A stretch of DNA of 64,000 nt from Acidocella aromatica (GTDB lineage: Bacteria; Pseudomonadota; Alphaproteobacteria; Acetobacterales; Acetobacteraceae): contig NZ_JACHFJ010000001.1 in the NCBI RefSeq assembly GCF_014201825.1, positions 1 through 64,000 on the forward strand, read 5' to 3'. The notes below the pieces were generated by a model, which was not told the origin of the DNA, did not search any database, and saw only the letters and a program-made list of their open reading frames with translations. The position numbers and the translations under genes are program-made. Position 1 is the stretch's first letter. Each line of letters opens with the position of its first letter. Shown here in pieces: positions 18,108 through 20,643 of the stretch.

Positions 18108-18953
18108 ATGAATATGAAGCGCATGCGTGGCCGCGGGCATCGCCAGGGGGGCGGTGGCGGAAGCGGGTTTCGCAACCAGCAGAACGGCATTCCGCTCAAC
18201 CGCAACCATGTGTTCGATAGCTCCGGCCCGGAAATGCGGGTACGTGGCACGGCGCAGCAACTCTACGACAAATACACCCAACTGGCGCGCGATGCCGCCA
18301 GCGGGGGCGACCGTGTGCTGGGCGAAGCCTATTACCAGCATGCCGAGCATTATTTCCGCATCATCAGCGCCATCAACCAGGCGCAGGGCCTGCCGCCTCC
18401 GGGCCAGGGCGGGCAGCAGCAGGGTGGCGAGTTCCAGCGCCGCGAAACAGCCGAGGGCGGCGAGACCCAGGGCGAGCACCGCGAACAGCAGCCGCGCCAC
18501 GAGAACCGCCAGGAAGGCCGTCAGGACAACCGCGAGCACCGGGAACACCGGCAGCAGCAGGAACGACGCTTCGAGCCGCGCCAGCAGCGCCAGGAATTCC
18601 AGCCGCGCGAGCGCAACGAGCAGCGCGGCGAGCGCCAGTTCCGCCCGGCGGCACCGATCGCGGAAACGCCAATCGACATCAGCTCCGCCCTGGAAGCCGA
18701 GTTGCAGGCCGCCGCGGCAGCGCCCGCCGGTCTTGGCGAACAGCCTAACGTGCAAGCTGAACAGCCAGTAGTGCAGGCCGAGCTGCCGATCGTGCCGGAG
18801 CCGCGCGCCATCCCCATCATTCCCGATGCCCCGCCCGCCCCGATTGAAGCCGTGGCGGAAGAGGAGCCTGCCGCTACCCCCGCGCCGCGCCGCCCACGAG
18901 GCCGCCCGCGCACCAAGCCGGTGGCAGCCGAGACTGAGAAAGTCTCCGAATAA
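18108..18953 (+). CDS. DUF4167 domain-containing protein
   Basis: The start MNMKRMRGRGHRQGG and the segment DSSGPEMRVRGTAQQLYDKY...GEAYYQHAEHYFRII (about 30-85) mark the alphaproteobacterial DUF4167 family, which regularly follows prmC. The rest is disordered: a Gln/Glu/Arg-rich middle (about 100-190) and an Ala/Pro-rich acidic end. The basic Arg/Gly-rich N-terminus suggests RNA or ribosome binding, but no function is established here. I chose ATG 18108 over the in-frame upstream start at 18054, because the family begins at MKRMRGRG. A terminator follows. Confidence 0.85.
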   Translation: MNMKRMRGRGHRQGGGGGSGFRNQQNGIPLNRNHVFDSSGPEMRVRGTAQQLYDKYTQLARDAASGGDRVLGEAYYQHAEHYFRIISAINQAQGLPPPGQGGQQQGGEFQRRETAEGGETQGEHREQQPRHENRQEGRQDNREHREHRQQQERRFEPRQQRQEFQPRERNEQRGERQFRPAAPIAETPIDISSALEAELQAAAAAPAGLGEQPNVQAEQPVVQAELPIVPEPRAIPIIPDAPPAPIEAVAEEEPAATPAPRRPRGRPRTKPVAAETEKVSE

Positions 18954-18956
18954 AAG

Positions 18957-18983
18957 AAAAGGCCGGGAAATCCCGGCCTTTTT
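18957..18983. terminator. Bidirectional terminator between DUF4167 gene and infC
   Basis: Inverted repeat AAAAGGCCGGGA / TCCCGGCCTTTTT with a 2-base centre. It has a T-run on the plus strand and, because of the preceding A-run, also on the minus strand, so it can end both convergent genes. Confidence 0.88.
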
Positions 18984-19010
18984 CGTATCTGCAAGAAATC
19001 GTGCGGCGCC

Positions 19011-19550
19011 TTATTTGGGCGCCAGCACCATCACCATCTGCCGGTTTTCCATCTTCGGCATCTGCTCGACCTTGGTATCGGTCTCCATATCGCCACGGAT
19101 GCGCTCCAGCACCTTCACGCCCAGCTCCTGGTGCGCCATTTCGCGGCCGCGGAAGCGCAGCGTGACCTTCACCTTGTCGCCCTCGCCGATGAATGACTTC
19201 ATCGCGCGCAGCTTCACCTGGTAGTCGTTCTCGTCGATATTGGGGCGAACTTTCACCTCCTTGATCTCGACGATCTTCTGCCTCTTGCGCGCCTCGTTGC
19301 GCTTCTTCTGCTGCTCGAACTTGAACTTGCCGTAGTCGAGGATCTTGGCCACGGGCGGTTCGGCGTTCGGGCTAATTTCAACCAGGTCGAGACCCACGGC
19401 GTAAGCACGTGCGATCGCGTCCCGGGTGCTGAGCACGCCGATCATTTCGCCGTCCTGGTCGATCAGACGAACCTGCGGAATTCTGATTTCTTCGTTGACC
19501 CGGGGCCCCTCGCGGGATGGCGGGGCGGGTGGCGCTGGCGGTCTGGCTAT
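19011..19550 (-). CDS. infC: Translation initiation factor IF-3, AUA start codon
   Basis: IF-3 keeps 30S subunits free and checks start-codon pairing. From 19550 the product is 179 residues, the normal IF-3 length: [20 protein letters not shown], then the N domain ([20 protein letters not shown]), the lysine-rich linker ([18 protein letters not shown]) and the C domain ending QMVMVLAPK. No ATG, GTG or TTG fits the N-terminus. The codon at 19548-19550 is ATA, 6 bases after a perfect AGGAGAC (19557-19563). Rare AUU/AUC/AUA starts are known for infC and underlie its autoregulation. A longer frame to 19973 would run into the divergent DUF2189 gene. rpmI and rplT do not follow. Confidence 0.93.
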
Positions 19551-19563
19551 TGGGAAGTCTCCT
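19548..19563 (-). promoter_or_regulatory. infC ribosome binding site and AUA start
   Basis: On the minus strand AGGAGAC (19563-19557) is followed by six bases and ATA (19550-19548) in frame with IF-3. This decides the start. Discrimination against AUA by IF-3 itself would give negative feedback on infC translation, as known for the AUU start of E. coli infC; that mechanism is inferred here. Confidence 0.75.
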
Positions 19564-19773
19564 GTTACGGTTACGGAGTATGGCCTTAGGGCAAAATGGC
19601 CCGGAAATGCAATCCGCTCGAGTGCTGGGGGATGAAATCTTCCCCGCCATGGGTTGCCGCGGGAGATTAGCTCAAATTCACCCAAGGTTAAGGCAAAACC
19701 GCCGGAACCTGCGGGAATAATGCCTATGTCCGCGCAATAGCCAAGAACAAACGCGGCTACGGAGGATAAGGTC

Positions 19774-20643
19774 ATGCATATCCGCAATCCCGTGGAGTGG
19801 GTTCTGGGGCAATTCCACGCCACAGAAATGCTCGGCAGCGCTGCGCCAGAGACATATTTCAGCACCACCGAATCCGGCCCGCCAATGGTGCGCCCTATCG
19901 GCTTCGCCGATGTCTTCCTCGCGCTGGGACAGGGGTGGGAGGATTTCACCGCGGCGCGCACCGACCTGATCATGCTCTGGCTGATCTACCCGGTGATGGC
20001 CGCGTATCTCGTCGCGGCGGATTTCTATGGCCAGCTTATCCCCCTGCTCTTCCCCGTAGCCTCCGGCTTCGCGCTGGTCGGGCCGTTATTTGCCATCGGG
20101 TTTTACGAGATGAGCCGCCAGAGGGAGCTGACCGGGCAAATGCACTGGCGGGATGGCTTTAACGTGCTGCGCTCCCCGGCCATCGGCGCCATTACCGGGA
20201 TGGGGCTGACACTGATTGCCCTGTTCCTGGCCTGGCTGGCGGTGGCCGAGCTGATCTACGACGTCACCCTTGGCCCAGTGCAACCCACTGGCTGGCTGCC
20301 CTTCTTCAGCGCCGTGCTGACCACGCCCAGGGGGTGGGAGATGATTGTGCTTGGTGTCGGCATCGGGGCGGTATTCGCCGTGCTGGTGCTGGTTATCGCC
20401 AGCATCTCCTTCCCTCTGCTGCTGGACCGCCCAGCCACACTCGGAACCGCTATCCGCACCTCGGTGGCGGCGATAATGCTCAACCCCGCGCCGCTGGCGT
20501 TGTGGGGGGCAATCGTCGGGGGCGGGCTGGTGCTGGGAACAATCCCGGCTTTTGCCGGGCTGATCGTGGTGCTGCCCGTGCTGGGCCATGGCACATGGCA
20601 TCTGTACCGGACCATGGTGCCACGGCCCGGTAGCGCAGCCTAA
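19774..20643 (+). CDS. DUF2189 integral membrane protein
   Basis: A 289-residue protein with about six hydrophobic helices after an N-terminal 60-residue cytoplasmic stretch. The pattern [18 protein letters not shown], then [16 protein letters not shown], then a SFPLLLDRP segment, fits the DUF2189 family found in alphaproteobacteria, often described near respiratory oxidase genes. No function is established. A strong GGAGGATAAGGTC site precedes ATG 19774. It is divergent from infC, and its stop overlaps the glycosyltransferase stop on the other strand by 3 bases. Confidence 0.8.

Follow-up and report, generated by a model that had tools for sequence, protein, structure and literature searches.

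The gene of initiation factor IF3, infC, starts with ATT in Escherichia coli and with ATC in Streptomyces, and IF3 exerts a feedback on its own translation (PMC5472188). The E. coli gene, for which this source refers to Butler 1986/1987 and Sacerdot 1996, has a start codon other than AUG, GUG or UUG at a conserved site behind a strong Shine-Dalgarno (SD) sequence, and it lies between thrS and rpmI (annotated as thrS-infC-rpmI). For Streptomyces, the same source describes repression by IF3 of a gene whose start is non-canonical, the experiments reported there being concerned with sigR (GTC), and states that such starts are often misannotated. In Staphylococcus aureus, a member of a distant phylum, retapamulin-enriched ribosomes (Ribo-Ret) were found at an AUA start of infC, and the same feedback was suggested, autoregulation being called likely by analogy to E. 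coli (PMC13009471). According to this source, other AUA and AUU starts in S. aureus reporters reach, relative to AUG, about 10% in poor medium and, for one of them, up to 30% in rich medium. Listeria reporters rank in the order ATG > ATA > ATT (PMC13068326). Within the Alphaproteobacteria, infC genes with ATA behind an SD sequence are known from the annotation of plasmid records of Azospirillum and Falsirhodobacter.

Here, we examine infC of Acidocella aromatica. The window, i.e. the whole stretch of DNA analysed, comprises 64,000 nucleotides. Its relevant features are the following:

19550-19011, minus strand: infC, encoding IF-3 of 179 residues, with stop codon 19013-19011 (reading frame and profile matches)
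19548..19550, minus strand: ATA, proposed start codon (conserved in genus and family loci)
19557..19563, minus strand: putative SD sequence AGGAGAC, 6 bases ahead of the start codon (sequence; SD-like 5-mer in relatives)
19527..19547, minus strand: codons 2-8, with hardly any synonymous variation within the genus (synonymous identity; folding tests)
19584..19612, minus strand: promoter-like pair TTGCAT-N17-CTAAGG (genus alignment)
18957..18982, minus strand: terminator-like hairpin 3' of infC, adjoining the end of the convergent gene (terminator scan)
19774-20643, strand opposite to infC: divergent DUF2189 gene (Pfam)

The reading frame is open from the ATA at 19550 down to the stop codon at 19013-19011 and encodes, as the preliminary description of this DNA had it, a normal IF-3 of 179 residues. 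Both IF3 domains are matched in order (Pfam; IF3_N, residues 18-87; IF3_C, residues 94-179), and the infC equivalog profile TIGR00168 scores 248.8 bits against a cut-off of 60. IF3_N is matched once in the own genome, whose 29 contigs total 2.88 Mb; infC is thus present in one copy. The closest relatives of the protein come from two MAGs, one of an unclassified proteobacterium (98% identity) and one of Acidocella (92%), followed mostly by Acetobacteraceae. Neighbouring genes encode RF-1, PrmC, DUF4167, DUF2189, a glycosyltransferase and GMP synthase (Pfam). The DUF4167 gene comes next and is convergent, and a terminator-like hairpin stands at 18982-18957 (the scan gave 3 terminator-like sites in all, against 1.1 expected by shuffling); infC therefore looks like a single-gene unit and its mRNA monocistronic, in contrast to the arrangement in E. 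coli. An Rfam scan of the window gave zero matches at gathering thresholds.

The preliminary description had placed the start of infC at this ATA, in frame and 6 bases behind AGGAGAC, which is confirmed on the minus-strand sequence. An SD sequence is thus present; calling it perfect was a slight overstatement, as its consensus part is limited to the five bases AGGAG, 8 bases ahead of the ATA. The anti-SD GGATCACCTCCTT is intact in the own genome. Also correct was the claim that no ATG, GTG or TTG fits IF-3: none occurs in frame in the 60 codons that precede the conserved RVNEEIR core, and the first canonical codon downstream, the ATG of residue 36, lies within the IF3_N match. SD energy alone was rejected as proof of the start, since a similar rule, applied to the 51 long ORFs of the window, found the best SD at CTG, ATC, ATA or ATT in 27. 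With SD strength being that unspecific, the case for ATA rests on conservation and not on a single SD match.

IF3_N was matched in 32 of 38 genomes of the genus, from which 30 loci were obtained, the window's own and 29 others; one fetched locus was dropped because a contig end cuts it, leaving 28 usable. All 28 carry ATA at an equal distance to the core, followed by GCC AGA as second and third codons. Of the 300 Ile codons inside the same genes, 7 are ATA. Of the 90 family loci fetched, 89 could be used, and their start is ATA in 76, ATC in 7 and CTG in 6 after four hand corrections, the automatic rule having given 73 ATA, 8 ATC, 6 CTG, 1 TTG, 1 ATT and 1 without a start; here ATA makes up 9 of 779 internal Ile codons. 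One of the corrected loci, L204, had been assigned a TTG, which lies 10 codons before the ATA and has a stronger SD. All usable loci keep an SD-like 5-mer (genus 28/28, family 89/89). In many members of the family an ATG follows the ATA in frame, five codons downstream; by eye, it lacks a strong SD of its own. Genus and family together give 117 usable loci, none of which was assigned a canonical start, as compared to 5 of 147 usable class and phylum loci. Relatives with ATG at a different position, which the preliminary description had named as grounds for refutation, thus did not refute its proposal. Conservation across genus and family settles the choice of the ATA, and AUA 19550 is well supported as the start of infC by these comparisons.

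A sequencing or assembly error that turned ATG into ATA, for which nothing speaks except the rarity of AUA starts, is already refuted by the relatives (ATA stands in all 28 usable loci of the genus and in 41 of the 80 named infC loci, sets that partly overlap), and its probability is negligible. Translation could also begin elsewhere in the frame, either upstream, around the ATG at 19973, up to which the frame of the window is open, or downstream, with residue 36 (ATG); two of seven alphaproteobacterial records inspected are indeed annotated from a downstream ATG. However, in 22 of the 28 usable genus loci an in-frame upstream stop is followed by no ATG, GTG or TTG before the core, and in several loci this stop directly adjoins the SD. 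The window's infC, with its open frame, is outside these 22, but the upstream part of the frame overlaps the divergent DUF2189 gene, so that the ATG at 19973 lies in that gene and beyond a conserved promoter-like element, and residue 36 is within the IF3_N match. We consider a start elsewhere highly improbable.

The promoter-like element, TTGC(A/T)-N16/17-CTAAG or similar, was seen in 27 of 29 sequences (the window and 28 genus loci) about 60 bases before the start, by means of a loose pattern composed after the alignment had been viewed. A strict sigma-70 scan of 18930-19800 gave no promoter match. The position of the pair makes far-upstream starts of infC unlikely, and, if it is functional, the leader would measure about 27 bases.

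Regarding annotation, it had been predicted that gene finders will misplace this start. This holds for two of the seven alphaproteobacterial records, Azospirillum ramasamyi and Azospirillum lipoferum 4B (the L467/L469 pair), which are annotated from a downstream ATG, SD and ATA standing upstream of it. It does not hold for the four annotated at ATA (Azospirillum brasilense Cd, Azospirillum argentinense Az39, Azospirillum sp. B510 and Falsirhodobacter algicola) and for Sinorhizobium meliloti, annotated at ATT like E. coli N3. Given these four records and the AUA on infC of S. aureus, the present gene is a further, well-conserved case of a known type. The AUA assignment fixes the N-terminus of an essential gene which is still misannotated in some relatives. 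The open-access literature searched yielded no N-terminal or profiling data on alphaproteobacterial infC; the main text of the N-terminome study of Ruegeria (R.) pomeroyi (PMC3305630) gives shares of ATG, GTG and TTG only and leaves infC unmentioned, as does the main text of a Zymomonas study.

Concerning the start codon of infC beyond the family, 82 of 90 class loci were usable, with 50 ATA, 22 ATC, 6 ATT and 4 ATG, and the 65 loci of the phylum set, which contains some alphaproteobacteria too, gave 24 ATT, 20 ATA, 20 ATC and 1 GTG. The genus, family, class and phylum sets together (274 loci, 264 usable) comprise 174 ATA, 49 ATC, 30 ATT, 6 CTG, 4 ATG and 1 GTG. The 80 named closest infC loci, partly overlapping these sets, comprise 41 ATA, 25 ATT, 10 ATC, 1 CTG and 1 ATG, 2 being dropped; ATA is found in records of Rhodobacter, Gemmobacter, Yoonia, Gluconacetobacter, Komagataeibacter and Acetobacter, ATT in those of Rhizobium, Shinella and Bartonella, and ATC in Thauera and Acidisoma. 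With each family code represented by its commonest start, the 80 alphaproteobacterial codes for which a start was usable show ATA in 45, ATC in 21, ATT in 11 and ATG in 3, and the 32 codes of other Pseudomonadota show ATC in 15, ATT in 8, ATA in 8 and GTG in 1. The statement that AUA is rarer than AUU thus fails for infC, with ATA in 50 of 82 usable class loci and commonest in 45 of 80 alphaproteobacterial family codes. As the loci are the best-scoring ones per search, plus one per family picked from the best matches listed, divergent infC genes are under-sampled in all these counts.

Seven starts were changed to ATA by hand, namely L011 (was CTG), L111 (ATC), L142 (CTG), L200 (another ATA), L204 (TTG), L230 (ATT) and L283 (ATG). 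Four loci were dropped, L017 and L027 for a broken frame and L093 and L215 at contig ends. Eight class loci (L161, L165, L261, L282, L289, L294, L296 and L307), several with little or no SD, were left ambiguous, the automatic rule having given 3 TTG and 1 CTG among them. Before hand changes the class read 49 ATA, 22 ATC, 9 ATT, 5 ATG, 3 TTG and 2 CTG.

On a FastTree phylogeny of 265 IF3 sequences (the 264 loci and the window) over about 100 residues, the start codon would have to change at least 48 times, a raw figure that is inflated by the roughness of the tree. On the same tree at least 4 changes between canonical and non-canonical starts are required. ATG is a single transition away from ATA. 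In the sequences compared, the letters of the infC start vary without, as a rule, entering the canonical set, and the contrast is large. Base composition was rejected as a cause of ATA, because loci with ATA are richer in G+C (median in class and phylum loci 0.578, versus 0.530 for ATC and 0.472 for ATT) and internal Ile codons avoid ATA.

A Met-tRNA with anticodon cat is present on two contigs (ARAGORN; L414:19-95 and L415:1-77) and was taken, by eye, for the initiator; an earlier search pattern was discarded, having matched a spot at which ARAGORN gave no tRNA, and a second pattern found the Met-tRNA. As the presumed initiator keeps CAU, AUA would be a third-position mismatch. The anticodon stem of an initiator tRNA usually has three G-C pairs. 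In the presumed initiator (TCAGG-CTCATAA-CCTGA) an A-U pair stands, by eye, in place of the first of them, which may bear on start-codon stringency. This replacement would also suit a change in the initiator tRNA or the genetic code that makes AUA an ordinary strong start. Against this speak the cat anticodon assigned by ARAGORN on both contigs and the start of infA (IF1), which is never ATA: it is TTG in 30 of 30 genus loci (L384-L413, with L409 from the own genome; 31 of 38 genomes matched), and across the family it is ATG in 29 of 30 loci, with TTG in L461 alone. Changed decoding is accordingly a very remote prospect. By these assignments infA is a second initiation-factor gene with a weaker start in the window's genus. 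A further control gene, rpsJ, starts with ATG in 23 of its 26 loci, a count of little weight because the search pattern itself demanded Met there.

The region that follows the start is conserved beyond its coding content. Synonymous identity in codons 2-8 of infC averages 0.885 over 28 genus sequences, versus a maximum of 0.722 in 160 seven-codon windows of the gene body. The same codons of rpsJ (0.638, 23 sequences; reached by 80 of 85 body windows) and infA (0.698, 30 sequences; reached by 15 of 57) show no excess. The native 5' end of infC, i.e. a 28-base leader and 14 codons, is predicted to be less structured than a mean of 95.8% of its synonymous variants (29 sequences), compared to 62.7% for rpsJ and 72.9% for infA. 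Predicted accessibility from SD to start was no better than in synonymous variants (0.61 versus 0.60). According to the folding model, the frozen codons 2-8 may keep the mRNA start unstructured.

The locus shares with E. coli infC the start outside AUG, GUG and UUG, the strong SD and the conserved site, and it differs in having AUA and not AUU; it carries the sequence features expected of an IF3-autoregulated infC gene, i.e. a non-canonical start, a normally spaced SD, an intact anti-SD, a conserved start class and a CAU anticodon in the presumed initiator tRNA. Together with the precedents of E. coli, Streptomyces, S. aureus and Listeria, this makes self-regulation of infC most likely here. 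Translation from AUA with E. coli-type autoregulation through a codon rejected by IF3 is the best reading of the locus and in our judgement very probable. The preliminary description had proposed just this, and its view is upheld as the best explanation of an ATA conserved against codon bias in a genome with CAU Met-tRNA and anti-SD. The initiator tRNA would read AUA 19550 as formyl-methionine despite the third-base mismatch, and IF3 would destabilise 30S complexes at this codon, so that high IF3 would lower and low IF3 would raise its own synthesis. Start-codon checking by IF3 would then be the limiting step, as we infer from the strength of the remaining initiation region (AGGAG, good spacing, little-structured 5' end). 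The repression, the feedback loop, the N-terminal Met and the limiting step are presumed by analogy to E. coli and Streptomyces; the Streptomyces examples concern other codons and actinobacteria.

As a rival explanation, AUA might be a fixed start of low efficiency that sets IF3 dosage, IF3 feedback having no part in this lineage. Weak starts can simply cut yield, as the S. aureus AUA and AUU reporters at about 10% of AUG illustrate (PMC13009471), and the genus also uses TTG on infA in 30 of 30 loci. For fixed dosage, however, GTG, TTG or a weaker SD would suffice, and the site is ATA, ATC or CTG in the 117 loci as assigned, the SD 5-mer is kept in 117 of 117, and in the genus the 5' end has unusually little structure. 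Strong rejection by IF3 is not expected for a TTG start. Fixed dosage is therefore the less attractive explanation and appears rather unlikely.

Beyond autoregulation of this one gene, the start of infC in the Pseudomonadota may be a conserved "not-AUG" character, which drifts among AUA, AUC, AUU and CUG while reversion to AUG, GUG or UUG is selected against, since it would break the self-control of IF3. Self-control would be tuned by clade, and a weak codon deliberately paired with a very strong, unstructured site. We lean towards this proposal with reservation. It would extend the E. coli textbook case to a clade-wide natural experiment with AUA, AUC, AUU and CUG lineages and a few AUG or GUG exceptions. 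With this variety of lineages one can ask directly if feedback is what maintains the non-AUG start, and if the level of IF3 or its stringency depends on which codon is used. The open-access literature searched gave no account of AUA dominance in Alphaproteobacteria, of a CUG genus or of drift within the rejected set.

The CUG lineage involves a mismatch at the first base. Six infC loci of the family carry CTG at the homologous site behind CAGGAG, in the context CTG GCC CGA GGC CCN. In the genus of one of them CTG stands behind CAGGAG in 17 of 17 genomes (L117, L125, L417-L431); 11 of these lack ATG, GTG and TTG in the stretch from the upstream stop to the core, and the other 6 have a TTG seven codons before the core. 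We call this genus Roseomonas-like because Roseomonas sp. GC11 (L016) has the same CTG start; Roseomonas ponticola has ATA. An infC with a CUG/CTG start was not found in the open-access literature searched. In E. coli a CUG start is quoted as yielding 0.86% of AUG (PMC11497404).

Lineages with a canonical infC start are few, namely ATG in 4 of 82 usable class loci and in 1 of the 80 named loci, and GTG in 1 of 65 phylum loci. Among the infC genes of Alphaproteobacteria, a few (L151, L167 and L074) have a short N-terminus and an ATG behind a strong SD. These are possibly natural losses of the non-AUG start.
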